This document shows, piece after piece, positions 6,969-24,446 of a stretch of DNA of 64,000 bases. Every line of letters starts with the position of its first letter. The stretch's first letter is position 1. The stretch lies in NCBI RefSeq assembly GCF_008642335.1, contig NZ_CP029191.1, forward strand, positions 744,001 through 808,000. The letters run 5' to 3'. This DNA is from Streptomyces venezuelae. Lineage in GTDB: Bacteria; Actinomycetota; Actinomycetes; Streptomycetales; Streptomycetaceae. The translations under genes were made by a program, and so were the position numbers. Below the pieces are notes generated by a model, which was not told the origin of the DNA, did no database searches, and saw only the letters and a program-made list of their open reading frames with translations.

Positions 6969-7111
6969 GTGGGGTTCCTCCGGTTCGGCGTACTCCGCTG
7001 ACCTGCACGTACAGAAACTCGCACACTGTCGAACAGCTCATCCGTTGAGCGAGTGGCGCGGCGGCGGTCAGCCTCGGCCTCGTATCTGTCGTCGCTGTGT
7101 TGGAGTCCCGC

Positions 7112-8275: not shown

Positions 8276-8343
8276 GAGTGGCGGCTGTCCGGTTGAGGGT
8301 GGCAGCGGCCCGGTTGAGGGTCGCGGCTGTCCGGTCGAGGGTC
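8261..8343 (+). repeat. 21-bp tandem repeat across a stop codon
   Basis: Four imperfect copies of a unit like GCGGCTGTCCGGTTGAGGGTG lie at 8261-8280, 8281-8301, 8302-8322 and 8323-8343. The first copy contains the TGA stop of the serine hydrolase; the rest continue downstream. Since 21 is a multiple of three, copy-number change would leave the reading frame and the stop intact. Each unit from the second on repeats a TGA or CGA at the same place. Confidence 0.8.
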
Positions 8344-8371
8344 GCGGCGTCGGGATCGCGAGGGCGCCGCC

Positions 8372-9604: not shown

Positions 9605-9690
9605 GAGGGCGAGTCTCCCATGATCCGTACACGGGCCCGCCGTTCCCTCGTCATCCGCTCGTTCCTCCCCCGCACCGTCGCGCACTCGTC

Positions 9691-9720
9691 TTGTCCGCGC
9701 CCCTCGCGCACCCCTACCCT
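9691..9720 (+). promoter_or_regulatory. Candidate promoter of the MFS gene, leaderless
   Basis: TTGTCC (9691-9696) and TACCCT (9715-9720) are spaced by 18 bp. The GTG at 9727 follows 6 bp later without any ribosome binding site, giving a leaderless message. This also decides the start of the MFS gene against the upstream TTG. Confidence 0.45.
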
Positions 9721-9726
9721 GACTTT

Positions 9727-10950
9727 GTGCCGCTCAGAAACAAAATCGGGACCGCGGCATCGCGGCCCTCCCCCACACCTCCCGACCTCCGCCGCCTCCG
9801 CGTCATCCTCACGATCTTCTTCGCCCTGGACGGATTCATCTTCGCCGGATGGGTCGTCCGCATCCCGGCCATCAAGGACCAGACGGGCGCGTCGGCCAGC
9901 GATCTGGGGCTCGCGCTGCTCGGGGTCTCCGTCGGCGCGGTGATCACGATGACGCTGACCGGGCGGCTCTGCCGCCGCTTCGGCACCCACCCCGTCACCG
10001 TCGCGTGCGGCGTGCTGCTCTCCCTCAGCGTCGCCCTGCCTCCCCTGACGCACTCGGCACCGGCCCTCGGCGCGGTGCTGCTGATCTTCGGAGCGGCGTA
10101 CGGAGGGATCAACGTCGCCTTCAACAGCGCCGCCGTCGACCTCGTGGCCGCGCTGCGGCGCCCGATCATGCCCAGCTTCCACGCGGCGTTCAGCCTCGGC
10201 GGCATGGCCGGCGCGGGGCTCGGCGGAGTGATCGCCGGCTCCCTCTCCCCCACGCGCCACCTGCTCGGCCTCACCGTGATCGGCCTGCTCGTCACGGCCG
10301 TGGCCGGACGCGCCCTCCTGCGCATCGAGCCTCCGGCACCCGCGGAGAGCCGGAGCAGCCCGGACGCGAACCGCGACGCCGCCCCGGACAGCGGCCCCCG
10401 CCGCCTCGACACCCGCACCCGCCGTCTCGTCCTCGTCTTCGGTCTCATCGCGCTCTGCACCGCCTTCGGCGAGGGCGCGCTCGCCGACTGGGGCGCCCTC
10501 CACCTCGAACAGGGCCTGGCCGCCCACCCGGGCCTCGCGGCCGCCGGCTACTCCTGCTTCGCCCTGGCCATGACCCTCGGCCGGCTCAGCGGGACCACCC
10601 TGCTCGAACGCCTCGGACAGACCCCGATACTCGTCGCCGGCGGCGCCACGGCCGCCGCCGGCATGCTGCTCGGCGCGCTCGCCCCGACGGTCTGGCTCGC
10701 GCTCATCGGCTTCGCCGTCACCGGTCTCGGGCTAGCCAACATCTTCCCCGTCGCCATCGAGCGCGCGGGCGCGCTCGCGGGACCCAACGGTGTCGCCACC
10801 GCATCCACCCTCGGCTATGGCGGCATGCTCCTCGGCCCGCCCGCCATCGGCTTCATGGCCGACTGGTTCACCCTGCCGACCGCTCTCACCAGCGTGGCCG
10901 TGCTCGCGGGCCTCGCCGCCGTGATCGGCTACACGACGCGCCACCGATGA
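9727..10950 (+). CDS. MFS transporter, sugar/drug type
   Basis: 407 residues if started at the GTG at 9727, with about 12 transmembrane segments. TM1 is LRVILTIFFALDGFIFAGWVVRIPAIKDQTGASASDLGLALLG; this WVVRIPAIKD pattern is typical of the YbjJ/FucP-like MFS branch in Streptomyces. A motif-A-like turn (GRLCRRFGTHPV) follows TM2. The central loop is Pro/Ser/Arg-rich. It is divergent to a ROK regulator, which suggests a sugar-linked role. The reading frame continues upstream to a TTG at 9691, but that codon coincides with the putative -35 box, so GTG is preferred. Substrate unknown. Confidence 0.82.
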   Translation: MPLRNKIGTAASRPSPTPPDLRRLRVILTIFFALDGFIFAGWVVRIPAIKDQTGASASDLGLALLGVSVGAVITMTLTGRLCRRFGTHPVTVACGVLLSLSVALPPLTHSAPALGAVLLIFGAAYGGINVAFNSAAVDLVAALRRPIMPSFHAAFSLGGMAGAGLGGVIAGSLSPTRHLLGLTVIGLLVTAVAGRALLRIEPPAPAESRSSPDANRDAAPDSGPRRLDTRTRRLVLVFGLIALCTAFGEGALADWGALHLEQGLAAHPGLAAAGYSCFALAMTLGRLSGTTLLERLGQTPILVAGGATAAAGMLLGALAPTVWLALIGFAVTGLGLANIFPVAIERAGALAGPNGVATASTLGYGGMLLGPPAIGFMADWFTLPTALTSVAVLAGLAAVIGYTTRHR

Positions 10951-11299
10951 AGGGCCGTACGCCTGCGCGTCCTGCCACGTACTGCGGAGTCCTGAGAAGG
11001 AAGTGACCCGAGCACATCACGCCGGGCGCCACGTCAACCCCTATATCCGGCCATCCGGCCGACCCTTGCCGGAACGCGGCTTCTGTACAGCGGACGCCCG
11101 TTTCGCCAGCACGCGCGCGCCCGCCCGCCGTCACCCGACGCAAGCGGATGCCGATCGAGCTTCCAGAACTCATGAGGACCGGCCAATCTCTGAGTAATGC
11201 ATCGAAAATAATGTTTTACAAGCGGTGTTCCCAGGAATTAAGGTGAGCGCTCAACTAGAGACGGCTTGCTGGTATCTGGGAATTCAAGGTCGGACCCTT

Positions 11300-11324
11300 T
11301 GATTGATCCGTCTGATTGATCCGT
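11300..11324 (+). repeat. 12-bp direct repeat, candidate regulator site
   Basis: TGATTGATCCGT occurs at 11300-11311 and again at 11313-11324, separated by one base (period 13). It sits in the A+T-rich stretch about 370 bp before the NRPS start and about 50 bp before the short ORF. It could be a site for a tandem-binding activator or repressor. No regulator gene is present in the cluster itself. Confidence 0.5.
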
Positions 11325-11372
11325 ACCGTCCGATCGCAAGCCGGTCAGTCAAAACGGGGAGAGTGTAAAGGC

Positions 11373-11423
11373 ATGTACGTGAAATTCCGTGAAGCCGCTC
11401 GGCACACCGGATCACGCTGCTGA
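11373..11423 (+). CDS. Possible 16-residue leader peptide
   Basis: ATG followed by 15 codons and TGA encodes MYVKFREAARHTGSRC. A GGGGAGAG tract lies about 9 bp upstream, with AAAGG nearer the ATG. The peptide ends in a cysteine codon next to the stop. The genes downstream consume serine, O-acetylserine and glutamine, and stem-loops follow, so a ribosome-sensing attenuator is conceivable. It lacks the HVDL motif of the known Streptomyces cysteine-type leader peptides. Coding status is not proven. Confidence 0.35.
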   Translation: MYVKFREAARHTGSRC

Positions 11424-11460
11424 GCCCTTCTGGGCCTTCACCGCAAGCGACCGCTCGTCC

Positions 11461-11590
11461 GCATGTCACACCCCGTATGCCTGACATGCTCGACACGCAC
11501 TTCACGCGCGCCTCAGCGCGTCTCGGTCGCGACGAAAACCACCTGGGTCAGTACCTATGACCGCGTTTCGTCGCGCCCTTTCCATTTTTT
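11461..11590 (+). promoter_or_regulatory. Structured leader with three stem-loops and a T-run
   Basis: Stem 1 pairs GCATGTCA (11461-11468) with TGACATGC (11482-11489). Stem 2 pairs ACGCGC (11504-11509) with GCGCGT (11516-11521). Stem 3 pairs CGCGACGAAA (11528-11537) with TTTCGTCGCG (11566-11575) and encloses an inner GGTCA/TGACC hairpin. A TTTTTT run follows at 11585-11590. The arms are perfect. The arrangement resembles a transcription attenuator or other cis-acting RNA between promoter and NRPS, but the T-run starts 9 bases after the last stem, so terminator strength is uncertain. Confidence 0.5.
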
Positions 11591-11697
11591 AGCCTGTTTC
11601 GGCTGTTCTCGCGCCGTGCCGGTCTCCGACCGCCGGCCCATCTCTGCAATGACGCATCCCAAAATTCTGCAAAATTCTACGGATTCCAGGTCAGAGA

Positions 11698-14600
11698 ATG
11701 ATGACGAACCCCACGGGGCATCAAGAATTATCCCTGCCATACATGCTGCGCGCGGCCGTTTTCGCCCAGCCCGACCGGACCGCCGTCTCCTGCGGCGCGG
11801 ACAGACTGACTTTCCGGCAGCTCGGCGAGCGGAGCGGCGAGCTGGCGGCACGCCTGCGACATCTCGGTGTCACGGCGGATGAACCAGTCGGCATCTTCCT
11901 GCCGCCCTCCGTCGACCTCATGGTGAGCGTCTGGGGAGTGCTGTGCGCGGGCGCCGCCTATGTGCCGCTGTCGCCCGAGTATCCGGACGAACGCGTGCGC
12001 TACATGGTCGCGGACTCGCGGACCAGGGTCGTCCTGACGGACGCGCCCCTGTCCGACCGGATGGCGGCCCTGACCCCACCGGATACCCGCATCCTCACCG
12101 TCACGGGGGACGACGGCGCCACAGGCGTACTTGATCCGGAGCTCGTCGTACGGGGTGATGACCTCGCGTATGTCATCTACACCTCCGGAAGTACCGGCCG
12201 CCCGAAGGGCATCGGGATCGAGCACCGCGGCATCGTCCATCAGATGCGCTGGCTCGCCGATGAGCAGGGGCTCGACCGGACGAGGACGGTGCTGCAGAAG
12301 ACGCCGCTGAGTTTCGACGCGGCGCAGTGGGAGATCCTCGCCCCGGCCTGCGGCGCGACCGTGGTGATGAGCGAACCGGGGGTCTACGCCGACCCCGGCG
12401 GACTCGTCGACCTGATCCTGGCCAACGGCGTGACCACACTCCAAGGCGTGCCGACCCTGCTGCAGGCGCTCGCCGACACGGGCCGACTGGCCGACTGCAC
12501 GTCGCTCACGCAGGTCTTCAGCGGTGGCGAGGCGCTCACCAGGAGTCTGGCGACCGAACTTCTCGACGCGCTGCCCGGCTGCGAACTGGTCAATCTGTAC
12601 GGCCCGAGCGAGTGCACCATCAATGCCTCGTCCCACCGTGTGGACCGGCACGCCCTCCGGCAGAGCCCCGAGCACGTGTCCATCGGACGGCCCGTGCGCG
12701 GCATGCGCTTCCACATCCTCGACGCCGAACGGCGGCCGGTCCCGTCGGGCGAGTCCGGTGAACTCTACATAGCGGGGCCCCAGTTGGCCCGAGGGTACCT
12801 GAACAACCCCGAACTGACCGCGGACCGGTTCGTCCCCGGCAGCGGTGCGGCCGACGCCACCCGCCTCTACCGCACCGGAGACCTGGCCCGCTGGAACGCC
12901 GACGGCACGGTGCAGTTCCTCGGCCGCACCGACAGCCAGGTCAAACTGCGCGGCTTCCGGGTCGAGCTGGACGAGATCAAGGTGTCCGTCGAGAGGCACG
13001 ACTGGGTGAAGTCCGCCACCGTGCTGGTCCGCGACGACGCGCGGACCGGAGCCAACCTCGTCGCCTTCGTCGAACTCGACCCCGACCGGGCCGCGTTGAT
13101 GGACCAGGGCAACCACGGCGCCCACCACCAGTCCAAGCAGAGCAAACTGCAACTCAAGGCGCAGCTCGGCAACTTGGGCGTACGCGAGGACGAAGGGCTG
13201 CCCGTCGTCGGCTTACCGGGGCGGGCCGCCACGGCCGGGCAGCGCCGCACCGTGTTCGCCCGCAAGACGTACCGCTTCTACGAAGGCGGCCCGGTCACCC
13301 GCGACGACCTCCTGACCCTGCTCGCCCGCCCGGCCCAACGGGCCGCCGCACCCCGCGACCCGGCCACCCTCACCCGGGACGAACTCGGCTCCCTGCTCCG
13401 CTACTTCGGCCAGTTCCCCAGCGGCGAGCGCCTTCTGCCCAAGTACGGCTACGCCTCTCCCGGCTCCCTCTACGCCACCCAGCTGTACCTGGAGCTGTCA
13501 GGCATCGCCGGACTGGAGGCGGGTCACTACTACTACCACCCGGTCGACCACCACCTCACACTGATCGCACCGGCTCCCACGCCCGCTGCCACCCGGGCCG
13601 CGCCCAGGATGCGGGTCCACTTCGTCGGGCGCCGGTCCGCCATCGAGCCGGTCTACCGGAACAACATCCGAGAGGTCCTCGGGTTCGAAGCGGGCCACAT
13701 GATCGGCCTGTTCGACCACGTGCTCCCCGAGTACGGGCTGCGCGTCACCGCCCGCGCGGACGAACCCGGCATCAAGGACGTGCTGCGCTGCCCGGACGAG
13801 GACCTCTACCTGGCCACGTACGAGATCGAGACGGCCGCGGCGCCCGCCGGGCCCCACCCGGTCGACCTGTACGTGCAGGCGCACCCCGGCCGGATCACCG
13901 ACCTCGCCGAGGGCCACTACAAGTACCGGGACGGGGATCTGGAGCGGGTCTCCGACGGGCTCATCCGCAAGCAGGACGTCATCGCCATCAACCAGGAGGT
14001 CTACGCACGCTCCAGTTTCGGGGTCACGATGATCGGGCGGGCCGCGGCGCCCTGGCAGCGCTACGCCGACCTCGGCCGGGAGCTCCAGCGCCTCCAGCTG
14101 AACGGCATCGGCCTCGGTCTCATGTCGTCCGGCTACAGCTCGGAGACCGGGCATCCGCTGGCGTCGGCGCGGCGCATGACAGCGCTCCTCGGCGTGGGCA
14201 CGGGCGACACGGCGTCCTATTTCGCCGTGGGCGGCCGCATCAGTGAGGAGCAGCGCCTCAGCGAGGGCATGAAGGAGGACTCCGTCCACATGCGGGGTCC
14301 CGCCGAGATCCTCAAGGAGAACCTCGCCGAGACCCTGCCGCCGTACATGGTGCCCAACCGGGTCACCGTCCTCGACTCGTTCCCGCTCACCCCCAACGGC
14401 AAGATCGACCACCAGGCCCTGCGCGAGCTGGACCGGGCCGCCGTCGACGACGCCGACGCACCGGTCGTACCACCGCGCACGCCCACCGAGGAGGCGGTCG
14501 CCGCGCTGTGGCGCGAGGTGCTGCGACAGGAGCGGGTCTCGATCCGGGACGACTTCTTCGCCGTCGGCGGCCATTCGCTGACCGCGGTCAACCTGGTCGG

Positions 14601-15762
14601 CCGCATCAACCGGGAGCTGGGCAGTTCCCTGCCGCTCCAGGTGCTGTTCGACGCGCCGACCGTCGCCGGTCTCGCCCGGCTCGTCGACCGTACGCCCACC
14701 ACCGCGCTGTCCCGTCTGGTGCGGCTCGGCGGCGCGGACGACGGACGGCCGGTCTTCTGCTGGCCGGGACTCGGCGGCTATCCCATGAGCCTGCGGCTGC
14801 TGGCAGGACGGCTCGGCCTCGCCCGGCCGTTCCTCGGTGTCCAGGCGTACGGCATCAACCCGGGCGAGCGCGCGTACCCGACGTTCGAGGAGATGGTCGC
14901 CAAGGACATCGAGCTCATCCGGCAGGCGCAGCCGAAGGGCCCGTACACGCTGTGGGGGTACTCCTTCGGGGCCCGGGTCGCCTTCGCGGTGGCCCGGCAG
15001 CTGGAACAGGCCGGGGAGCGCGTCGACGAGGTGATCCTCATGGCGCCCGGCAAGCCACCCGTGGAGGTGCGCGACGGTGCGCCCGCCGAGGCGACGGTCG
15101 ACTTCACCGACCCCGCGTTCGTGGCGATCCTCTACTCCGTCTTCGCGGGGACCATCCAGCGGTCCGCGATCGCCGAATGTCTGGCGTCGACCCACGACGA
15201 GGAGTCCTTCATCGCGTGCCTCTGCGACCGGTTCGAGCAGCTGGACCGCGAGCTGGTGCGCCGGATCGTCGGCGTGGTGCGGCTGACGTTCCTGTTCGAG
15301 TACGGCCCCGAGGACATGGCCGGGCACCGGGTCACGGCGCCGGTCACGGTGTTCCGCGCCGCCGGCGACCAGGACTCGTTCATCGACCACGGCCACGGTC
15401 ACGGCCACCCGCTGACGGCCACGCCTCCCCGGATCCACCGGCTGCGGGCCGACCACTACGCACTGCTGCGCGCGCACGGAGTGGACGAACTCGTCACCGC
15501 CCTGCGCGACGCGCGCCTCACCCGAAAGGTCATCCCGGTGCCCCACGTGAACATCAAGCACTTCCCGAACAACCTCGAAGAGGCCCAGATATCGGCGCTC
15601 GTGGACGCGATCACGAGCGCGGTCAGGACCGCCTTCTCCGTCGACGAAGGGGTGGTGTCCATCGCCCTGGAGCCCGTGGCCCAGGACGTGTGGAACGAGC
15701 GGGTCTACATCCCGGAGATCGTCGAGGATCCCGGCCACCTCATCAAGAGCCCGGACTACTGA
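11698..15762 (+). CDS. Indigoidine-synthetase-like NRPS (A-Ox-T-TE) with C-terminal tautomerase
   Basis: 1354 residues. The adenylation domain has A3 (YTSGSTGRPKG, about 159), A4 (FDAAQWE), A5 (NLYGPSECT), A7 (YRTGDLAR) and A8 (GRTDSQVKLRGFRVELDEI, about 409-427). I read its pocket as D-A-W-Q-F-G-L-I-N plus the A10 Lys, a glutamine-type code as in indigoidine synthetases. A SagB/nitroreductase-type FMN oxidase (about 500-835, with PGSLYATQLYLEL and GHYYYHPVDHHL) interrupts it before A10 (PLTPNGKID, about 896). Carrier Ser is about 960 (VGGHSLT); thioesterase Ser about 1089 (GYSFGA). Residues 1282-1354 are a PptA-like 4-oxalocrotonate tautomerase. Start is ATG 11698 or 11701. Rare TTA codons lie at codons 11 and 506. 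The next gene begins 13 bp after the stop. Product inferred to be a glutamine-derived aminopyridinedione. Confidence 0.9.
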   Translation: MMTNPTGHQELSLPYMLRAAVFAQPDRTAVSCGADRLTFRQLGERSGELAARLRHLGVTADEPVGIFLPPSVDLMVSVWGVLCAGAAYVPLSPEYPDERVRYMVADSRTRVVLTDAPLSDRMAALTPPDTRILTVTGDDGATGVLDPELVVRGDDLAYVIYTSGSTGRPKGIGIEHRGIVHQMRWLADEQGLDRTRTVLQKTPLSFDAAQWEILAPACGATVVMSEPGVYADPGGLVDLILANGVTTLQGVPTLLQALADTGRLADCTSLTQVFSGGEALTRSLATELLDALPGCELVNLYGPSECTINASSHRVDRHALRQSPEHVSIGRPVRGMRFHILDAERRPVPSGESGELYIAGPQLARGYLNNPELTADRFVPGSGAADATRLYRTGDLARWNADGTVQFLGRTDSQVKLRGFRVELDEIKVSVERHDWVKSATVLVRDDARTGANLVAFVELDPDRAALMDQGNHGAHHQSKQSKLQLKAQLGNLGVREDEGLPVVGLPGRAATAGQRRTVFARKTYRFYEGGPVTRDDLLTLLARPAQRAAAPRDPATLTRDELGSLLRYFGQFPSGERLLPKYGYASPGSLYATQLYLELSGIAGLEAGHYYYHPVDHHLTLIAPAPTPAATRAAPRMRVHFVGRRSAIEPVYRNNIREVLGFEAGHMIGLFDHVLPEYGLRVTARADEPGIKDVLRCPDEDLYLATYEIETAAAPAGPHPVDLYVQAHPGRITDLAEGHYKYRDGDLERVSDGLIRKQDVIAINQEVYARSSFGVTMIGRAAAPWQRYADLGRELQRLQLNGIGLGLMSSGYSSETGHPLASARRMTALLGVGTGDTASYFAVGGRISEEQRLSEGMKEDSVHMRGPAEILKENLAETLPPYMVPNRVTVLDSFPLTPNGKIDHQALRELDRAAVDDADAPVVPPRTPTEEAVAALWREVLRQERVSIRDDFFAVGGHSLTAVNLVGRINRELGSSLPLQVLFDAPTVAGLARLVDRTPTTALSRLVRLGGADDGRPVFCWPGLGGYPMSLRLLAGRLGLARPFLGVQAYGINPGERAYPTFEEMVAKDIELIRQAQPKGPYTLWGYSFGARVAFAVARQLEQAGERVDEVILMAPGKPPVEVRDGAPAEATVDFTDPAFVAILYSVFAGTIQRSAIAECLASTHDEESFIACLCDRFEQLDRELVRRIVGVVRLTFLFEYGPEDMAGHRVTAPVTVFRAAGDQDSFIDHGHGHGHPLTATPPRIHRLRADHYALLRAHGVDELVTALRDARLTRKVIPVPHVNIKHFPNNLEEAQISALVDAITSAVRTAFSVDEGVVSIALEPVAQDVWNERVYIPEIVEDPGHLIKSPDY
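15538..15762 (+). CDS. Possible internally initiated PptA-like tautomerase
   Basis: Inside and in frame with the NRPS, GTG at 15538 is followed at once by a proline codon, giving (fM)PHVNIKHFP. This matches the N-terminus of 4-oxalocrotonate-tautomerase relatives such as E. coli PptA, whose catalytic base is the free N-terminal proline. GAAAGG (15524-15529), a six-base match to the anti-Shine-Dalgarno sequence, lies 8 bp upstream. The product would be 74 residues, close to PptA. If translated only as the NRPS tail, the proline would be blocked. Separate translation is an inference. Confidence 0.45.
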   Translation: MPHVNIKHFPNNLEEAQISALVDAITSAVRTAFSVDEGVVSIALEPVAQDVWNERVYIPEIVEDPGHLIKSPDY

Positions 15763-15775
15763 GGGGGCTGATCCC

Positions 15776-16384
15776 ATGCGGAAGACCGTCATCAGGGCGC
15801 GGGAGGACCTCTCCATGATCGTGGAGCGGGACCCCTCGATCCACACACGCACACAGGCGCTGCTGCACCCCGCGCTGCCGGCCCTGTGGGCACACCGGGC
15901 GGCACACGTCCTCTACACCCGTCGACGACGTCAACTCGCCCGTCTCATCGCCTACTTCGCACGAGCGGCGACCGGCGGCGTCGAGATCCATCCGGGTGCG
16001 CGGCTCGGCCGCCGCGTGTTCATCGACCACGGCGCCGCCGTCGTCATCGGGGAGACCGCCGAGATCGGCGACGACGTCACGATCTTCCACCAGGTCACGC
16101 TGGGCGCGGTGGGCTGGTGGCGGGACGGGCGGCGCGCGCCGGGCGCCCGCCGCCACCCCGTCGTCGGCGACCGGGTGGTGCTCGGCACCAACGCCATCGT
16201 CCTCGGCCCCGTCACCGTCGGCGACGACGCCCTGATCGGCGCGGGAGCACTGGTCCTGGGCGATGTGCCGTCCCGGGCCCGCGTGACGGCCCCCGTGGCC
16301 GCGGTCGCCGTACCGCTGTCGGCCGCGGAGCGCGCCGAGTCGGAGCAGCTGCTCCGGACCCTGGCCACCGCCGGGTGCTGGTGA
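15776..16384 (+). CDS. Serine O-acetyltransferase (CysE type)
   Basis: 202 residues. Makes O-acetyl-L-serine from serine and acetyl-CoA. The N-terminal helical part is short, followed by a left-handed beta-helix of hexapeptide repeats (VEIHPGARLGRRVFIDHG, VVIGETAEIGDDVTIFHQVTLG, VVLGTNAIVLGPVTVGDDALIGAGALVLG). The catalytic His is in the FIDHG motif (about residue 85), equivalent to the Asp-His pair of CysE. It begins 13 bp after the NRPS and is followed by a cysteine-synthase-type domain, so here it probably feeds O-acetylserine to the pathway rather than general cysteine synthesis. The C-terminal CysK-binding Ile tail is absent; the protein ends AGCW. Confidence 0.88.
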   Translation: MRKTVIRAREDLSMIVERDPSIHTRTQALLHPALPALWAHRAAHVLYTRRRRQLARLIAYFARAATGGVEIHPGARLGRRVFIDHGAAVVIGETAEIGDDVTIFHQVTLGAVGWWRDGRRAPGARRHPVVGDRVVLGTNAIVLGPVTVGDDALIGAGALVLGDVPSRARVTAPVAAVAVPLSAAERAESEQLLRTLATAGCW

Positions 16385-16464
16385 CGGCCCGCGCACCTCG
16401 TACTCATCCACACAGCAACGGACTTCACCCCGGCGACGAGCCGGTACGCCAACGGAGGCACAGA

Positions 16465-18681
16465 ATGATCCACGTCGGAGTCCTGGAGAGCAATCTCTCC
16501 GGTTCCGGCTTCGAGGGCCTGCAGATCATCAAGGAACTCGACTGCCGCGTCACCTTCTTCACCCGCGACCTGGAGCGCTACCTCGCGGTCCCGGGCGGAC
16601 CCGCCTACTTCGACCGCTACGTGGACACCATCGTCCGGTGCGAGACGAACGTCTACGAAGAGCTCCTGCCGCACGTGCACGCCGCCGGGGCCGAGCAGCC
16701 CTTCGACGCGTTCCTGACCCTGGCCGAGTACGACGTGGTCGTGGCCGCCGAGGTCGCGGTCCACCTCGGGCTCCCCACCGTCAGCGTCGACGGTGTCGCC
16801 ACCGCACGCAACAAGGCGCTGATGCGCCGCCGCTGCGCCGACCTCGGCGTGCCCATCCCGGAGTTCCGCACCGTGCGGACGCCCGACGAGGCAGCCGTGG
16901 CCGCCGCGGAGGTCGGCCTGCCCTGTGTGGTGAAGCCGGCCGACGAGACGAGCAGTGCGGACGTGCGTCTCGTCGACACGCCGGAGCAGGCCGCCGAACA
17001 CGTCGCCCTGATCCGCTCCCGCGCACAGAACACCCGCGGCCAGGCCCGCCACGACGAGCTGATGGTCGAGGAGTACATGAGCGGCCCCGAGGTCAGCGTG
17101 GAGGTGCTCGCCGACGGCGACCGGTACGAGGTGTTCGGGGTGACCGACAAGTCGGTCGTCGGGCTCGGCCACTTCGTCGAGCTGGCCCACACCTTCCCCT
17201 CCCGGCTGCCCGATCCGCTCGTACGCGCCTGCGGCGATCTGGCCGTGGAGGCGTTGCGGGCGGTCGGCTTCGACCTGGGCATGGCCCACGTCGAGGTGAA
17301 GCTGACGGCGTCCGGGCCCAAGCTCGTCGAGATCAACCCGCGGCCCGCCGGCGGGAAGATCACCTACCTCGTCGACCGGGCCCTCGGCATCAAGTCCCTG
17401 GAGCTGGTGGCGCGGCAGTATCTGGGTCAGCCGCTGCCCGACCCCGTGCTGCCGCCGCGACCGGTCGGAGGTGCCGCGATCCGCTATCTGACCGCGCAGC
17501 CCGGCCGGGTGGTGTCGGTCGCCGGGCGGGAGCGCGCCGCCGCGCTGCCCGGTGTCGAGGAAGTCGTCGTCAAGCCGGAACCGGGTTCTGTCGTACGGGA
17601 GTTGAGGCGCAACGGCGACCGGTCCGGTCATGTGCTCGCGGTGGCGGAGACCGCCGAGCTGGCGGCGCGCACCGCGGAGGCGGCCGTCCAGGAGATCGGG
17701 ATCCGCACCGTGCCGGTCTTCCGGCGTCCGGTCGCGGACTCCCTCGTCGACCTCATCGGCGGCACGCCGCTCCTGCGGCTGCCGGTGGACCGGATCGTGG
17801 ACGGTGCCCCGGCGGACGCCGACGTGCTCGCGAAGCTGGAGCTGTTCAACCCCTGGTCGAGCAGCAAGGACCGGGCCGCCCTCGCGATGCTGCGGGGCGC
17901 CGAGAGGCAGGGGCTGCTCGTGCCGGGCTCCGGCACCGTGATCGAGGCGACCTCCGGCAACACCGGTATCTCGCTGGCCGCTCTGGCGGCGGACCGCGGC
18001 TACCGCTGCGTCATCGTGCTGCCGGACAACGCGACCCGGGAGCGGCTGGCCATGCTGCGGTCGCTCGGCGCCGAGGTGGTGCGGACCCCGCACTCCGGCG
18101 GCTACCGGGCCGCGGTCGAGAAGGCCGAGGAGCTCCACCGGCGGACGCCCGGCTCGTGGTTCTGCCGCCAGCACGACAACCCGGACAACACACGGGCGCA
18201 CTACGAGACCACGGGCCCCGAGATCTGGAGTGACGTCGGCGGACGCATCGACGTGTTCGTCTGCGGGGTGGGAACCGGCGGTACGCTCAGTGGCGCGGGG
18301 CGATATCTCCGCGAGAGTCACCCCGCTGTGCGGATCGTGGCGGTGGAGCCTGCGGGCTCGCCGCTGCTGTCCGGCGGTGAGCCCGGTGCGCACGGCATCC
18401 CGGGCTTCAACGGCGGCTTCATCGCGCCGACCACGCAGCAGAGCCTCATCGACGAGGTGATCACGGTGTCCGACGCGGACGCCCTGGACACCACCCGGCG
18501 GCTCGCACGCCACGCCGGTCTGCTGGCCGGTGTCTCGGGCGGCGCGGTCGTCCACGCGTCCGGGGTGCTCGCAGCCCGGCCCGAGTACGGGGGCCGGCGC
18601 ATCGTGACGCTGCTGCCCGACACCGGCGAGCGGTACCTCAGCGTGCTCGCCCATGAGAACACCCCGGGCGGTGCCCGATGA
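16465..18681 (+). CDS. ATP-grasp ligase fused to cysteine-synthase-type PLP enzyme
   Basis: 738 residues from the ATG at 16465, which has a clear GGAGG. Residues about 1-400 are an ATP-grasp amino-acid ligase: ATP-binding Lys in VVKPADETSSADVRLV, then VEEYMSGPEVSVEVL and the metal-binding EINPRPAGGKI. Residues about 420-738 are a fold-II PLP enzyme of the cysteine-synthase family: NPWSSSKDRAA (PLP Lys about 468), EATSGNTGISLA, GTGGTLSGAG and SGGAVV. It would form aminoacrylate from O-acetylserine and add a nucleophile to make a beta-substituted alanine, then ligate it. In CysK the lysine motif is NPxxSVKDR; here SSSKDR. An ATGA overlap couples it to the next gene. Confidence 0.87.
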   Translation: MIHVGVLESNLSGSGFEGLQIIKELDCRVTFFTRDLERYLAVPGGPAYFDRYVDTIVRCETNVYEELLPHVHAAGAEQPFDAFLTLAEYDVVVAAEVAVHLGLPTVSVDGVATARNKALMRRRCADLGVPIPEFRTVRTPDEAAVAAAEVGLPCVVKPADETSSADVRLVDTPEQAAEHVALIRSRAQNTRGQARHDELMVEEYMSGPEVSVEVLADGDRYEVFGVTDKSVVGLGHFVELAHTFPSRLPDPLVRACGDLAVEALRAVGFDLGMAHVEVKLTASGPKLVEINPRPAGGKITYLVDRALGIKSLELVARQYLGQPLPDPVLPPRPVGGAAIRYLTAQPGRVVSVAGRERAAALPGVEEVVVKPEPGSVVRELRRNGDRSGHVLAVAETAELAARTAEAAVQEIGIRTVPVFRRPVADSLVDLIGGTPLLRLPVDRIVDGAPADADVLAKLELFNPWSSSKDRAALAMLRGAERQGLLVPGSGTVIEATSGNTGISLAALAADRGYRCVIVLPDNATRERLAMLRSLGAEVVRTPHSGGYRAAVEKAEELHRRTPGSWFCRQHDNPDNTRAHYETTGPEIWSDVGGRIDVFVCGVGTGGTLSGAGRYLRESHPAVRIVAVEPAGSPLLSGGEPGAHGIPGFNGGFIAPTTQQSLIDEVITVSDADALDTTRRLARHAGLLAGVSGGAVVHASGVLAARPEYGGRRIVTLLPDTGERYLSVLAHENTPGGAR

Positions 18682-21203
18682 CTGCTCCCTTACCCCTGAC
18701 GAGCTGGCACACCGGCGAGCGGCCGCGCCTGCTGATGGTGATGCCCTACCGGCAGTTCGTGCGCAAGGCGCGGGCCGAAGGATTCTGGGTCGGCGCGATC
18801 TGGGACCCGCGGCTCGAGACGCCCGGCTATCTCGACGACGTGCGCGCCGCCGCGGACCTGTTCGTGACGGTGGACTTCACGGACCGCGAGCTGCTGCGGC
18901 GCACCCTGCGCGACGTGGCGACGGAACACCGTGCGTCGGTGATCCTCCACCTCGGCAGGGAGGAGACGATGGTGACGGCCCACGAGGTCGCCGAGGAGCT
19001 GCGCGCCGAGGTCAATCCGGCGTCGGCGATCCGCTTCCTCTCCGACAAGCACGCGATGCGTGAGCTGCTCGCGCGGCGTGAACTGTCCCCGGTGGTCCAC
19101 GCGTCGGCGCCCACCAGGAGCGAGGTTCCGGCCGCGGTGGAACGCGTCGGTCTTCCCGCGGTCGTCAAGCCGGTCGCGTCCGCGGGCAGCAGGGGCGTGT
19201 TCCTGTGGCGGGAGCCGCGTGACCTGGCGGCCTGGACGGCGCTCGTGGACACGTACGGCTATGCCGGTCCCTTCCTCGTCGAGGAGTATCTGCGCGGTCC
19301 CGAGTACAGCGTGGAGACGCTGAGCCAGGACGGCGTGCACCGGGTCGTCGGCATCACGGAGAAGGTGCTCGGGCCGCCGCCGCTGTTCGTGGAGGTCGGG
19401 CACGTCCATCCGGCGCCGCTGCCCCCGGAGCGCGCGCAAGCCGTCGCGGAGCTGGCGGTCCGCTTCCTGACCGTGTGCGGGTACCGGTTCGGGCCCGCGC
19501 ACACCGAGGTGATCTGGACGGAGCGGGGGCCGCGCATCGTCGAGTCGCAGGCCCGGCTCGGCGGCGACCGCATTCCGCGGCTCGTCGAACTGGCCGGCGG
19601 ACTCGACGTCGAGCGGGCGATCTTCGCGGGTCTTGCGGGCGCACCGCCCGAGGTGCCGGAGCCGACGGCGACGGCGGCCGTGCGGTTCTTCACCTTCCCG
19701 CCGGGACGCGTCGACGCGATCCGCGGCCTGGAAGAGCTCCAACGCCGCTCGTACGTCGATGAGTTGACGCTGCGGCTGCGTCCCGGCGACACCATCGACG
19801 CGGTACGTGACTCCAAGGCACGCCAAGGGCACGTCATCGTCTCGGGCGCCACGCCCGAGCAGGCCGAGAGCCGCCTCGCGGAGGCCCTCGCCACCCTTGA
19901 GGTCGTCGTCGACGGGACGCCGGTCCGCGCGGACGGCCGGACCGCGGAGGCACCGGCCGGAGCCGACGCCCAGGTCGTGTTCGTCGGCTACAACGCGGCG
20001 TACCTGCGCGCCATCGACGGGAGTGTTCCCGACGGGTCCGTCGTGGTCCTCGAAGAGCCCGACATCATCCGCAAGCGGGACCTGCGGGACGCGGCGGCGC
20101 GCTTCGGCTGCCTCGACCGGATCGTGCCCGCGCACTACCAGCAGTCGGCCGGGGCCCTGGATCTGGCGGCCGACCTGGAGGCACGACGCCCGGTGGCGGC
20201 CGTCGTGCCGGGCCTGGAGTACGCGGTGCCCGCGGCGGCCGCGCTTGCCGAGAAGCTCGGGCTGCCGGGCGCGACCGAGCCCGCCGCGCAGGCGCTGCGG
20301 GACAAGGTGCGGCTGCGCGAGGTGTGCGACGCGGGCGGCGTCCGCGGTCCGCGCTGGCGCGAGGTGCACGGGCCCGAGGACATCCTCGCCTTCGCGGGCG
20401 GAGGGCCCGTCGTCGTCAAGCCGGCCAACCGGCAGGCCAGCGTCGGCGTGCAGCTCCTCGACTCCGTCGACGCGGCCACGGCCGCGGCGGCGTGGGAGCG
20501 CACGTCGTCCGCCGCCGAGTACGAGCAGGTGCCCGACCGGCACATGAAGTGGCGCTTCCTGGCCGAAGAGCGCCTGCGCGGGCCCGAGTACAGCGTCGAG
20601 GCCCTGGTACGGCAGGGCGAGATCATCTTCCACAACGTCACCGCCAAGACGGTGGTCCCGGGCCCGTACCCGGTGGAGCTCGGCCATCTGCTGCCCGCCC
20701 CGCTCGACCGGGACACCCGGGCCGCGTTCGAGGAGGCCATGCGGGCGCTCGTCGCCGCGACCGGCTACCGCACCGGGATCCTGCACGCCGAGTGGATCCT
20801 GACCGCGTCCGGTCCGGCGCTGGTGGAGTGCGCGGGGCGCTGCCCCGGCGACTACCTGATCGACCTCAACGACCTGGCGTACGGCACGCGGATCCGGCTG
20901 GCCCTCATCGACCTGCTGGCCGGCCGCCCGGTCGCCCTCCCCCGCACCGCGCAACGCGCCTCGGCCATCCGGTTCCTGGCCGCCGGACCCGGCACCGTCA
21001 CGGCGGTCGAGGGGACGGACGCGGCACGGGCGCTGCCCGGCGTACGGACGGTGGAGATCGACGTCGAGGCCGGGCAGGAGGTCCGGACCTGGGCGTCCTC
21101 GTGGGACCGCGCCGGACACGTGATCGCGACAGGGCCCGACGCGGACAGCGCGCGCCGACGCGTCCTCGACGCGGCCGCGGCCATCCACATCACCACGGAG
21201 TGA
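18678..21203 (+). CDS. Tandem double ATP-grasp ligase
   Basis: 841 residues made of two ATP-grasp modules. In the first (about 1-415) I see PAVVKPVASAGSRGVFL, VEEYLRGPEYSVETL and RIVESQARLGGDR. In the second (about 425-841) I see VVVKPANRQASVGVQLL, EERLRGPEYSVEAL and ALVECAGRCPGDYLIDL. ATP-grasp ligases join a carboxylate to an amine through an acylphosphate. The metal-binding position that is Asn in most (E-x-N) reads E-S-Q in the first half and E-C-A in the second, so one half may be specialised or weak. It overlaps the previous gene (ATGA) and carries a rare TTA codon at codon 5, predicting bldA-dependent translation. Both substrates are unknown. Confidence 0.85.
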   Translation: MTAPLPLTSWHTGERPRLLMVMPYRQFVRKARAEGFWVGAIWDPRLETPGYLDDVRAAADLFVTVDFTDRELLRRTLRDVATEHRASVILHLGREETMVTAHEVAEELRAEVNPASAIRFLSDKHAMRELLARRELSPVVHASAPTRSEVPAAVERVGLPAVVKPVASAGSRGVFLWREPRDLAAWTALVDTYGYAGPFLVEEYLRGPEYSVETLSQDGVHRVVGITEKVLGPPPLFVEVGHVHPAPLPPERAQAVAELAVRFLTVCGYRFGPAHTEVIWTERGPRIVESQARLGGDRIPRLVELAGGLDVERAIFAGLAGAPPEVPEPTATAAVRFFTFPPGRVDAIRGLEELQRRSYVDELTLRLRPGDTIDAVRDSKARQGHVIVSGATPEQAESRLAEALATLEVVVDGTPVRADGRTAEAPAGADAQVVFVGYNAAYLRAIDGSVPDGSVVVLEEPDIIRKRDLRDAAARFGCLDRIVPAHYQQSAGALDLAADLEARRPVAAVVPGLEYAVPAAAALAEKLGLPGATEPAAQALRDKVRLREVCDAGGVRGPRWREVHGPEDILAFAGGGPVVVKPANRQASVGVQLLDSVDAATAAAAWERTSSAAEYEQVPDRHMKWRFLAEERLRGPEYSVEALVRQGEIIFHNVTAKTVVPGPYPVELGHLLPAPLDRDTRAAFEEAMRALVAATGYRTGILHAEWILTASGPALVECAGRCPGDYLIDLNDLAYGTRIRLALIDLLAGRPVALPRTAQRASAIRFLAAGPGTVTAVEGTDAARALPGVRTVEIDVEAGQEVRTWASSWDRAGHVIATGPDADSARRRVLDAAAAIHITTE

Positions 21204-21211
21204 GGAAGCAG

Positions 21212-22471
21212 ATGTCTGTTCTCCGGCAGCGCGTCCGGGGGTGGCCGCGATCCATCCCCGGCGGACGGGTCGGCCTGCGGCTGTCCGTGATGGCGATGAT
21301 CGACGCCCTCGGCACGGGCGCCTTCCTGGCCGTCTCCGTACCGTTCATCACGCGGTCCGTCGGGCTCTCCGTGGGCGAGCTGAGCCTCGGCCTGACCCTG
21401 TCCGCCGCGATCGCCCTGGCCACGGCCGTCCCCATCGGCATCCTCGCCGACCGGATCGGCCCGAAGAAGGTCCTGGTCGGCGTCAGCCTGTGGCGCTGCG
21501 GCTGCTTCGTCCTCTACCCATTCGTCCAGAACCTGTGGCAGTTCCTGACGGTGGTGTGTCTGCTCGGTCTGGTCGACAAGGCGGCGGCGCCGATGGAACA
21601 GGCCCTGGTGGGGCAGGTGACGGCGACCGACGACCGGGTCAGGGTGGTCGCGGTGCTGCGGTCGCTGCGCAACGTCGGCTTCACCGTCGGCGCTCTCCTC
21701 GGCGGGGTCGGGCTGCTGATCGACACCCGGCCCGGCTACGCCGCGATCCTCCTGCTCAACGCCGCCTCGTTCGCCGTACTCGCACTCCTCGCCCACCGGC
21801 TTCCGGTGCTCGGCACCCCGGCGAAGAGCCTGCGGCGCCGCTTCTCCGTCGACGCGCTGCGCGACGCACCGTTCCTGTCGTTCACCGGGATCAACGCGGT
21901 GCTCACGATGCACATGACGCTGCTGAGCATCGGCATCCCGCTGTGGATCGTCGAGCACACGGAGGCCCCGGCCGCGGTGATCTCACCCCTGGTGGCGGTC
22001 AACACCGTGCTCGCTGTGGCGCTGCAGGTGCGCGCGAGCCGCGGCACCGAGACCATCGCCGGTTCCGCGCGGGCGCTGGTGCGGGCGGGCATCGCCCTCG
22101 CCGTCTGCTGCCTGCTCCTGATCGCCGCGCCGAAGCCGCCCGTCCTCGTGGCGGTCGGCGTGCTGGTCCTCGCCATGGTCGCGCTGACCGCGGGCGAGCT
22201 GTTCCAGTCCGCCGGCGGCTGGGGCGGTTCGTACCTGCTCGCGGCGCCCGGCCAGGAGGGCGTCTATCTGTCGGTCTTCTGGCTCGGCGTGGCCGTCCAG
22301 CAGATCGCGGCACCGGTCGTGGTCGGCCTGGTCATCACGGCGGGCAGCGCCGGATGGGCCGTGCTGGCCGCGCTGTTCGCCGTCTGCGGCCTCGCCGCGC
22401 CGCTCATCGGCCGGTGGGCGCAGGCCCGCGCCGCCATGAACCCGCAACTCGGTCAACCCGTCAGCACGTGA
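21212..22471 (+). CDS. MFS exporter of the NRPS cluster
   Basis: 419 residues, about 12 transmembrane segments. Start ATG 21212 lies 9 bp after the ATP-grasp stop, with GAGGA between; the longer upstream frame is a shadow of the ATP-grasp gene. TM2-3 loop motif A reads GILADRIGPKKVLVG. Position at the end of the operon, directly after the ligases, suggests export of the finished product or self-resistance. The central portion (FQSAGGWGGSYLLAAPGQEGVYLSVFWLGVAVQQIAAP) is typical of Streptomyces MFS proteins in biosynthetic clusters. Substrate inferred from context only. Confidence 0.85.
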   Translation: MSVLRQRVRGWPRSIPGGRVGLRLSVMAMIDALGTGAFLAVSVPFITRSVGLSVGELSLGLTLSAAIALATAVPIGILADRIGPKKVLVGVSLWRCGCFVLYPFVQNLWQFLTVVCLLGLVDKAAAPMEQALVGQVTATDDRVRVVAVLRSLRNVGFTVGALLGGVGLLIDTRPGYAAILLLNAASFAVLALLAHRLPVLGTPAKSLRRRFSVDALRDAPFLSFTGINAVLTMHMTLLSIGIPLWIVEHTEAPAAVISPLVAVNTVLAVALQVRASRGTETIAGSARALVRAGIALAVCCLLLIAAPKPPVLVAVGVLVLAMVALTAGELFQSAGGWGGSYLLAAPGQEGVYLSVFWLGVAVQQIAAPVVVGLVITAGSAGWAVLAALFAVCGLAAPLIGRWAQARAAMNPQLGQPVST

Positions 22472-22486
22472 TTCCAGGAGGGATCC

Positions 22487-22939
22487 ATGTCCGTTCCGCT
22501 GTACGTCCCCGCAGGTGAAGGCGAATACGTCGACATCCGGGACACGAAGAGGACGTATCTGAAACTCACCACGCCCGACTCCAACGGGGAGTTCGGCTTC
22601 TTCGAGCACCACATGGCCCCGGAGGCGAAGGGCGCGGCCCCGCACATCCACAAGCAGTCCACCGAGATGTTCTACGTGGTCAAGGGCGAGATCGAGTTCA
22701 CCATCGGCGACCGCAAGGTCGTCGGCGAGCCGGGCGCGTTCGCGTACGTCCCCAAGGGCGAGCCGCACGGCTTCACCAACCGGGGCACCGAGGACGCCAC
22801 CCTGCTGATCATGTTCTACCCGATCTACAACCGTGAGGACTACTTCCGCGGCCTCGGCCGGCTGACGGCCAACGGGCGCAATCCCAGCATGGAGGAGCTG
22901 CGGGAACACATGGCGAAGTACGACCAGTTCATGGTCTGA
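22487..22939 (+). CDS. Single-domain cupin
   Basis: 150 residues, 15 bp after the MFS gene with a GGAGGG site, so probably the last gene of the operon. Cupin motif 1 is APHIHKQSTEMFYVVKG (His 53, His 55, Glu 60) and motif 2 is PKGEPHGF (His 94), the full set of metal ligands expected for a metal-dependent beta-barrel. Such small cupins act as isomerases, dioxygenases, cyclases or metabolite sensors. In this cluster a role in tailoring the glutamine-derived heterocycle is plausible but unproven. A strong terminator hairpin follows immediately. Confidence 0.86.
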   Translation: MSVPLYVPAGEGEYVDIRDTKRTYLKLTTPDSNGEFGFFEHHMAPEAKGAAPHIHKQSTEMFYVVKGEIEFTIGDRKVVGEPGAFAYVPKGEPHGFTNRGTEDATLLIMFYPIYNREDYFRGLGRLTANGRNPSMEELREHMAKYDQFMV

Positions 22940-22950
22940 GCGGGAGGAGG

Positions 22951-22982
22951 GGGCCGGGGCCGGCATCAGTCGGCCCCGGCCC
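22951..22982 (+). terminator. Terminator hairpin after the cluster
   Basis: GGGCCGGGGCCG (22951-22962) pairs perfectly with CGGCCCCGGCCC (22971-22982) around an 8-base loop. CTCCC and a short T-run follow. It ends the cupin transcript; the stop codon of the convergent deaminase lies in the loop, so it can serve both directions. Confidence 0.8.
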
Positions 22983-23466
22983 TCCCTTTGCGGAAGCGCC
23001 ACTGCAACTCGCGTACCTCGTCGGCCAGTTCGGGGAACGGCCCGTCGACCTCTACGCCGGGTACGACGTCCTGGATGGTCAGCGGGCTCAAGGGCGAGGT
23101 GACGGGCACGCCCCACTCCGCCTTCCACTCCCGGGCCTGCCGGGACGAACTCGCGTACACGATGCGGCCGAGCCCGACCCAGCCGTGCGCCGCCGCGCAC
23201 ATGGGGCAGTGCTCGCCCGAGGTGTACACGGTCGCCGCGGCGCGTTCCTCCGGGGTGAGGTGGGTCGCCGCCCAGCGGGCGAGGGCGAACTCCGGGTGGG
23301 CGGTCGGGTCTCCGGTGGTGGACTCGCGGTTGCGGTCCTCGGCCCTGACCGTGCCGTCCGCGTCGACGATCACGGACCCGAACGGCCAGTCACCGGCCTC
23401 CAGCGCCTCGGCCGCCAGCTCGATGCAGCGGCGCAGGTGGGGCAGGTCGCGGTCGTGAGGTGCCAC
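22966..23466 (-). CDS. Nucleoside/guanine deaminase-like protein
   Basis: 166 residues of the cytidine-deaminase superfamily. The zinc site is complete: THPTAHPE-type histidine and catalytic Glu (His 57, Glu 59 in TAHPEFA), and GEHCPMC (Cys 87 and Cys 90). The PFGSVIVD strand upstream and lack of tRNA-binding features point to the small-molecule (guanine or cytosine type) branch rather than TadA. It would hydrolytically deaminate a purine or pyrimidine base in the cytoplasm. It is convergent to the biosynthetic operon, so a link to it is uncertain. The LLM oxidoreductase gene lies upstream on the same strand, 32 bp away. Confidence 0.85.
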   Translation of the reverse strand: MAPHDRDLPHLRRCIELAAEALEAGDWPFGSVIVDADGTVRAEDRNRESTTGDPTAHPEFALARWAATHLTPEERAAATVYTSGEHCPMCAAAHGWVGLGRIVYASSSRQAREWKAEWGVPVTSPLSPLTIQDVVPGVEVDGPFPELADEVRELQWRFRKGRAGAD

Positions 23467-23498: not shown

Positions 23499-24335
23499 CT
23501 ATGTCCGGTGGGCGGCCACGACCGCCAGCGCCTGCCAGGCCTTCTCCGGCTGGAGAGTCTCGTGCGGATCACCGTGGTACGGGTCCAGCAGCACCGTGTC
23601 GGCTCCGGCGAGGCGCAGTTCCTCCATGTCCTCCAGGAGCTGTTCGAGGGAGCCTTCGCCGGCGCGCCGGTCCGGGTCGTCGACCGGTTTTCCGGTGAGC
23701 CGCAGCCGGATCCGCGGCGCGAGACCCGGCATGGGCCGGCCGAGCTCGGCGGACATGCCCTTCAGTCGCACCAGCGCATCCCTGAACCAGGGCATCGTGA
23801 ACCTCAGCGGATGCCAGGGGGCACCGAACCGCAGGGCCCGGCGCATGGCCGCGTCGCTGTTCCCGCCGATCCAGATCGGTAACTGCCCCGAGCGGTAGTC
23901 GGCTTCGTTCTCCCAGGCCTCCCGCAGTGTCCGCAGGTGTTCGTCGGTCAGCGCGCCGCGCCGCTCGAAGGGGACGCCGAGCGCCTCGAACTCCTCCCGG
24001 GCCCAGCCGACCCCGACGCCCAGGATGAGCCGCCCGCCGCTGAGCTGATGGAGGTTGGCGGCCATGCGGGCGACCAGGAGAGGGTGCCGGTAGGGGGTGA
24101 TGAGCACGGTCGTGCCCAGGTCTATCCCGGTGGTGATGCCCGCCATCCAGGCGAGGGTGGTGAAGGGTTCGTAGAACGGCGCGGGATACTGCTCGGCCAC
24201 GTCCGGCGTGACCACCACGTGGTCGGACATCATCAGCAGTTCGAAGCCGAGTCCTTCCACGGTCTCGGCCCAACGGGCGAGGTGTTCCGGGTGCGTCCCC
24301 GGCCCGAAGTTGGGGACGTTCACACCTATCCGCAT
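23499..24335 (-). CDS. LLM-class F420-dependent oxidoreductase
   Basis: About 278 residues, luciferase-like TIM barrel. MRIGVNVPNFGPG at the start and GGRLILGVGVGWAREEFEALGVPFERRG are hallmarks of the actinobacterial F420-dependent branch. The segment IWIGGNSDAAMRRALRFG is the second glycine-rich cofactor site. It transfers hydride between reduced deazaflavin F420 and an unknown substrate. ATG 24335 is preferred because it begins the first beta strand directly; a GTG three codons earlier is also possible. It probably shares a transcript with the deaminase downstream and is divergent from a mycothiol-dependent-type enzyme. Confidence 0.86.
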   Translation of the reverse strand: MRIGVNVPNFGPGTHPEHLARWAETVEGLGFELLMMSDHVVVTPDVAEQYPAPFYEPFTTLAWMAGITTGIDLGTTVLITPYRHPLLVARMAANLHQLSGGRLILGVGVGWAREEFEALGVPFERRGALTDEHLRTLREAWENEADYRSGQLPIWIGGNSDAAMRRALRFGAPWHPLRFTMPWFRDALVRLKGMSAELGRPMPGLAPRIRLRLTGKPVDDPDRRAGEGSLEQLLEDMEELRLAGADTVLLDPYHGDPHETLQPEKAWQALAVVAAHRT

Positions 24336-24446
24336 GGGCGTCACCCTAGGAGTCCGCGGTCCCGGTGGCTACGGAGCGTACGCAATCGGTCCCAGATCGC
24401 CCGGAGGTTCCGGTTCCAGCGCACCGCATCCGACACAATCGCCCGC

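Follow-up and report, generated by a model that had tools for sequence, protein, structure and literature searches.

Two described kinds of gene cluster employ a glutamine-specific nonribosomal peptide synthetase (NRPS) with adenylation (A), oxidase (Ox), thiolation (T) and thioesterase (TE) domains. In indigoidine clusters, the synthetase (BpsA or IndC) occurs with IndA and IndB, and the ring made from glutamine dimerises to a blue pigment. In minimycin (oxazinomycin) clusters, the synthetase MinA carries an additional tautomerase domain, and the ring is diverted before dimerisation and coupled to ribose phosphate by a C-glycosynthase of PF04227, the IndA family. According to a review (PMC8724604), the tautomerase (Tau) domain of MinA yields the tautomer that MinB glycosylates, and MinC has HAD and DUF4243 domains. 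Here we describe a block of six genes in Streptomyces venezuelae that may lead the same ring to a further fate. The block lies in a window of 64,000 nucleotides (bases 744001-808000 of a genome of 8.05 Mb in one contig), and combines an NRPS of this kind with a serine O-acetyltransferase (SAT), a domain related to cysteine synthase (CysK), and ATP-grasp ligases.

Two other systems share parts of this block. The D-cycloserine (Dcs) cluster likewise brings together SAT, a CysK-like enzyme and an ATP-grasp enzyme, and its gene set includes an arginase, a racemase and a heme enzyme. L-amino acid ligases, such as BL00235, BacD and the dapdiamide synthase DdaF, have the same combination of ATP-grasp and LAL_C2 domains as the ligases of the window, but in the latter these are either joined to a CysK domain in one protein or present as a tandem pair.

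We consider it probable that the cluster makes a peptide built around a beta-heterocyclyl-L-alanine, which would be ligated by the ATP-grasp enzymes and exported. If this is true, the indigoidine/minimycin ring has a further fate, and the cysteine-synthase fold has a new role, that of adding whole heterocycles to alanine, possibly via carbon. Among the matches listed in the literature search, most subscription papers lying outside it, no paper gives this combination of genes in its title or the opening of its abstract; the cluster is apparently undescribed, as an initial annotation of this stretch had proposed.

The gene block and its proposed pathway

The six genes are all on the + strand (11698-22939) and have the identities that the initial annotation gave them, as confirmed by Pfam, NCBIfam and translations. 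Two genes on the opposite strand may extend the cluster.

11698..15762, +: glutamine-specific single-module NRPS of 1354 aa, with A (split), Ox, A C-terminal part, T, TE and tautomerase (Pfam/NCBIfam, homologue alignment)
13024..14295 (limits approximate), +: Ox domain of the flavin mononucleotide type, inserted between the two parts of the A domain (Pfam)
15538..15762, +: PptA/4-OT-like tautomerase domain, approximately aa 1281-1354 (custom profile)
15776..16384, +: SAT of the CysE/EpsC type (NCBIfam, alignment)
16465..17709, +: ATP-grasp plus LAL_C2, N-terminal part of a fusion protein (PF13535, PF18603)
17710..18681, +: CysK-like pyridoxal phosphate (PLP) domain, C-terminal part of the fusion (PF00291)
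18678..21203, +: double ATP-grasp ligase with two ATP-grasp plus LAL_C2 units (Pfam, alignment)
21212..22471, +: major facilitator superfamily (MFS) exporter of 419 aa (PF07690)
22487..22939, +: Cupin_2 protein (PF07883)
22966..23466, -: cytidine-deaminase-fold protein, possible cluster extension (PF00383)
23499..24344, -: luciferase-like F420-type oxidoreductase, possible cluster extension (TIGR03619, 184.5 bits against a cut-off of 166.9)

The fusion protein runs from an ATG start at 16465 to 18681 (738 aa); a longer open reading frame from 15886 is an over-extension. In the MFS region, the frame 21212-22471 matches MFS_1 at 85.9 bits in Pfam, and a reading in a different frame, 21241-22518, has no Pfam match.

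The NRPS has the A-Ox-T-TE module and the glutamine code of an indigoidine synthetase (IndC/BpsA). Its domain order and code had been given by the initial annotation and were borne out, the former by Pfam/NCBIfam and the latter by reading D-A-W-Q-F-G-L-I-N-K from the sequence by eye. The same ten-letter code is reported for the L-glutamine A domain of the IndC homologue of S. albus J1074 (PMC3992020), and in IdgS, Ox is likewise embedded within the A domain (PMC10989907). The tautomerase that marks minimycin synthetases is also present. A custom profile made from eight such domains scores 153.7 bits here, a value that is partly by construction, since the copy in the window is among its eight sources. 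Pfam gave no match to this domain, and PF01361 matches the homologous domain of a related locus, L048 (24.0 bits, cut-off 22). An NRPS of this architecture is already known from S. chromofuscus IndC and from MinA (PMC12766979, PMC3992020, PMC8724604).

Unlike indigoidine clusters, the window has SAT, CysK and ligases, and IndA is unlinked: the sole PF04227 match in the genome is at 1.844 Mb, some 1.09 Mb from the NRPS (0.756 Mb), in agreement with the absence of IndA noted in the initial annotation. The absence it noted of the Dcs arginase, racemase and heme enzyme also holds among the six cluster genes and the nine flanking frames with Pfam matches (ten queried). The window further differs from the D-cycloserine cluster in having an NRPS, and its CysK resembles cysteine synthase (308 bits) more than O-ureido-L-serine synthase (229 bits). 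A D-cycloserine-like pathway was rejected on these differences of gene set and CysK affinity.

In the proposed pathway, the NRPS would activate L-glutamine and cyclise and oxidise it to an aminopyridinedione that otherwise dimerises to indigoidine, by the ring-forming route of PMC10989907, and the tautomerase would give a nucleophilic tautomer, as proposed for MinA (PMC8724604). SAT would provide O-acetylserine, from which CysK would form an aminoacrylate, and the ring instead of sulfide would be added at the beta carbon. The ring could be altered by the cupin, and possibly also by the deaminase and the F420/luciferase-like enzyme. The ATP-grasp domains would then make one or more amide bonds, and the MFS protein would export the product. 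All the chemical steps in this strain, the order of ring alteration and ligation, and the type of bond (to C or N) are predictions from sequence.

The samples searched for relatives comprised 199 related genomes, 392 Streptomyces genomes, and a scan of named genomes. Five of the 199 relatives, own genome counted, carry the complete fusion at 83% or more. The named-genome scan gave seven loci (S. longisporoflavus, S. sp. WM6386, S. canus, S. fulvorobeus, S. pyxinicus, S. aureus NRRL B-1941 and S. atriruber), four of which were taken as already counted among the eight block genomes of the 392, so that there are 11 distinct clusters. All 11 have the NRPS, SAT, fusion, double ATP-grasp and MFS genes in the same order, and ten have the cupin. 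Linked conservation in other genomes, which the initial annotation had set as one test of the cluster, was thus found, the block being present in 11 Streptomyces genomes in all. The arrangement is more than chance, since gene order is kept in these genomes while both flanks diverge.

Probable assignment of the ring-alanine bond

The evidence on the coupling step comes mainly from three reduced relatives. The locus L048 has an NRPS-tautomerase, an EamA exporter, SAT, CysK and a cupin. L107 (genome G423) and L205, a five-gene locus at approximately 6250-14200 of the S. clavuligerus ATCC 27064 megaplasmid pCLA1, have NRPS-tautomerase, EamA, SAT, CysK and DUF4243. The DUF4243 protein (PF14027) scores 141.2 bits in L107, and the copy in L205 is 74% identical. 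No ATP-grasp match was found in the stretches of 20-25 kb that contain these three loci.

A match to the Ox domain (E 1e-30 or better) was found in 62 of the 392 Streptomyces genomes, and full-length PF14027 in six of the 62. In five (G363, G202, G336, G380 and G364) it stands beside the NRPS and PF04227, the arrangement of minimycin clusters; the sixth, G423, lacks any match to PF04227. Judging from these gene contents, the C-glycosynthase is replaced in L107 and L205 by SAT and CysK, and this is the main reason for assigning the ring-alanine coupling to CysK. In addition, since NRPS, SAT and CysK occur without an ATP-grasp match in all three reduced relatives, CysK, and not an amide ligase, is most likely the coupling enzyme. 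The initial annotation had also diverted the ring from blue pigment and invoked an O-acetylserine/CysK logic, and both points are supported. It had, however, joined the ring to a separate beta-substituted alanine through ATP-grasp amide bonds; this part was not supported, and ATP-grasp as the ring-alanine coupler was rejected on the reduced relatives, which show no match in their 20-25 kb stretches.

Compared with minimycin, the partner of the ring in the window would be O-acetylserine, through SAT and CysK, rather than ribose phosphate. L107 and L205 share the DUF4243 oxidase with minimycin clusters, whereas the window lacks it but has a cupin and ATP-grasp ligases, possibly with the deaminase and oxidoreductase. 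The genome of the window has just a partial PF14027 match (40.5 bits, at 3.39 Mb) and no full-length one. The proposed pathway also re-reads the locus of S. clavuligerus, an industrial strain, for which indigoidine was proposed from homology alone (PMC4640377). In the papers searched, the locus surfaced only indirectly, in this proposal and through SCLAV_p1477, a cysteine synthase of pSCL4 that is placed under cysteine formation in PMC5702194 and is presumably the CysK of this locus.

The Ox tree has 67 rows, without second copies (L057, L060, L062 and L063) and split Ox domains (L152 and L153). All 11 block rows group in a single clade (100/100), and 19 of the 21 CysK-linked rows fall into one group of 24 (support 90/86). 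The other five rows of this group are linked to IndA and are exactly those with PF14027, that is, of minimycin type; three of these five group with L107 (85/86). By coordinates, PF04227 is linked to the Ox-NRPS in 19 of the 62 genomes. The CysK and IndA labels need five changes each on the tree, of which well-supported branches force at least three; shuffling gave means of 13.7 and 13.5. Thus, CysK linkage clusters on the tree but cannot be put down to a single inherited accident.

The CysK domain itself is under both curated cysteine-synthase cut-offs (TIGR01139, 335.4 against 350.95; TIGR01136, 337.5 against 344.15), and the SAT passes EpsC NF041874 (163.5 bits, cut-off 150) but is under the cut-off of cysE TIGR01172 (176.8 against 210.65). 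Alignment with solved cysteine synthases showed that the PLP lysine and the TSGNTG loop are retained, presumably with their usual roles in CysK. Compared with these enzymes, the signature is altered: LPDNAT replaces MPETMS-like, QHDN replaces QFEN and GFNGGF replaces GIGAGF. A clade of relatives was defined by matches of at least 60% identity, drawn from 52 genomes that matched at 1e-84 or better; it comprises 49 genes in 48 of the 392 Streptomyces genomes. In the relatives, the signature reads GLNGGF, QHEN and LPxxA, with GLNGGV in L051; the third motif was unmatched by the pattern in L206, L221 and L226, and the other two in the Priestia locus L204.

In 44 of the 48 genomes, a ring-making module is near the clade CysK. 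In 20, this is a glutamine NRPS, at most 13 kb away: eight are block carriers, and 12 are further genomes (G056, G423, G367, G299, G080, G092, G023, G394, G236, G220, G437 and G457). The nearby CysK is of the altered type in all 20, and G236 has both IndA-linked and CysK-linked kinds, at two NRPS genes. The other 24 genomes have a module of asnB, PrpF, acyl-CoA dehydrogenase and dihydroorotase, complete or partial, in the same stretch as CysK (18 genomes) or in the neighbouring one (G012, G302, G412, G240, G424 and G287), with the dihydroorotase within approximately 29 kb of CysK in every case. The two modules did not occur together in the stretches examined around the clade CysK of the 48 genomes, and no asnB module was found at the NRPS-linked CysK loci, L048 having just a weak acyl-CoA-dehydrogenase match. 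Neither module was near CysK in G440, G038, G256 and G387, the last two on contigs that end close by.

As a control, the dihydroorotase was matched in 39 of the 392 genomes. Besides the 24 above, in G073, G077 and G244 it lies within approximately 10 kb of a second CysK (signature GIGAGY, seen in G073 and G077). Twelve genomes have it with no CysK match of the clade search nearby, among them G256 (another contig) and the NRPS-linked G080 and G433, where it is more than 200 kb from CysK. Thus, the module frequently accompanies CysK, though not invariably. Cysteine-synthase relatives of plants make mimosine and willardiine by using ring nucleophiles, and we infer that the CysK clade takes ring nucleophiles as well. 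Its signature can serve as a search key for an unexplored family of clusters.

Two observations were made on related modules. In L051, L206, L219, L222, L225 and L226, the asnB-type module is accompanied by another CysK-like gene, whose motifs are GIGAGY/GLGAGY and MPDNA. The same CysK logic appears on a plasmid of the Bacillota, Priestia aryabhattai pB2.1 (L204), in a row of asnB, PrpF, acyl-CoA dehydrogenase, dihydroorotase, cupin, pseudouridine-5'-phosphate glycosidase, oxidoreductase, ATP-grasp, cysK, MFS, SAT and dihydroorotate dehydrogenase.

Competing explanations

Several observations weigh against the proposed pathway or parts of it. Some clusters that lack the NRPS have the altered CysK signature too, so that the signature alone is no proof that the glutamine-derived ring is the nucleophile. 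On the Ox tree, two CysK-linked NRPSs (L124 and L144) do not belong to the minimycin-type group. Among the CysK-linked NRPSs, the tautomerase was not found in the stretches of four (L124, L134, L144 and L149), and it is a separate gene in several other CysK-linked clusters. Only the fusion keeps the Asn of the usual E-x-N-x-R motif, which both units of the double ATP-grasp protein have lost. In Streptomyces sp. WM6386 (L058), the block stops after the MFS gene, and cupin, deaminase and oxidoreductase are missing together; therefore, the modification of the ring may be dispensable. Finally, a locus of another genus (L173) has the deaminase and oxidoreductase (the oxidoreductase at 75%) without the cupin, and because of this, membership of the two genes in the cluster is graded possible, not probable; they may instead be neighbours that travel with it.

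The ligases leave room for another division of labour, in which CysK makes a beta-substituted alanine from some other small nucleophile, and an ATP-grasp enzyme links this to the glutamine-derived ring by an amide bond. The ring has an amino group that could be acylated, and three ATP-grasp units are available that retain most of their catalytic residues. Yet no gene for another nucleophile is seen in the block, L048, L107 and L205 have NRPS, SAT and CysK with no ATP-grasp match in the stretches examined, and in L107 and L205 SAT and CysK are found where minimycin-type clusters have their C-glycosynthase; on balance this version is unlikely. Still less probable is that the NRPS releases (S)-3-aminopiperidine-2,6-dione or dehydroglutamine as the end group of a peptide, to which CysK contributes, for example, diaminopropionate. 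The dione is an intermediate of IdgS, and the PadE TE domain of padanamide B cyclises glutamine in a similar way (PMC10989907); the ATP-grasp/L-amino acid ligase family is also present. However, an end group would need neither Ox nor the fused tautomerase, both of which are retained in the ten block clusters with a whole NRPS frame, and the CysK scores lower with the diaminopropionate model SbnA (224.5 bits) than with that of cysteine synthase (335.4 bits).

Ordinary indigoidine production, with SAT and CysK merely boosting the supply of cysteine or redox capacity, would account for the architecture and code of the NRPS and would fit the suggestion made by homology for S. clavuligerus (PMC4640377). 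We hold it to be very improbable, as it leaves the ligases and exporter unexplained, the CysK scores under both curated cut-offs, and the altered type recurs in all 20 NRPS-linked genomes. A role in cysteine or redox supply was rejected on the altered signature.

The coupling of the ring to alanine by CysK, as preferred here, can be extended to a bolder scheme that is possible but doubtful. CysK may form a C-C bond at the very ring carbon that the minimycin C-glycosynthase ribosylates, giving a C-linked ring-alanine as the counterpart of a C-nucleoside, and the same clade may alanylate the pyrimidine-like ring of the asnB/PrpF/acyl-CoA-dehydrogenase/dihydroorotase module. The clade would then mark a class of ring-alanine peptides with swappable ring supply.

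Ligases, cluster extent and related loci

The fusion has one LAL_C2 domain (PF18603), and the double ATP-grasp protein has two. By sequence, the nearest solved structure to the ATP-grasp of the fusion is the L-amino acid ligase BL00235, and those nearest to the double protein are also L-amino acid ligases. In alignment, all three units retain the ATP-binding Lys, hinge Glu pair, two metal Glu and Arg, to which we assign the customary ATP-grasp roles. The metal-site residues H53, H55, E60 and H94 of the cupin are invariant in nine aligned cupins of different cluster types.

The deaminase and the TIGR03619 oxidoreductase (both on the - strand) lie downstream of the cupin in the same ten of 11 clusters that have it. 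The remaining flanking genes tested are shared with the nearest relative (L039) only, save one 44% match in L041. Matches to the deaminase are present in 20 of 100 genomes, with at least 77% only in the own genome and G052, beside the cluster in both. For the oxidoreductase, 33 of 246 Streptomyces genomes have matches; the six at 75% or more are all cluster carriers, and the rest reach at most 71%. In S. fulvorobeus (L041/L060, one genome), the NRPS frame is broken close to the junction of TE and tautomerase.

A well-supported clade of 13 Ox-NRPSs (L106, L115, L122, L129, L130, L132, L133, L135-L138, L140 and L141) has neither IndA nor CysK in the stretches examined; L133, L135 and L137 have a cupin match of approximately 35%. 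A larger type of cluster combines an Ox-NRPS, a clade CysK and several ATP-grasp genes (L043/L119 in G080, L044/L150 in G092, L131/L154, L134/L155, L145/L156, L152/L157 and L153/L158), and L043 also has anthranilate-synthase-like, prephenate-dehydrogenase-like and AMP-binding genes.

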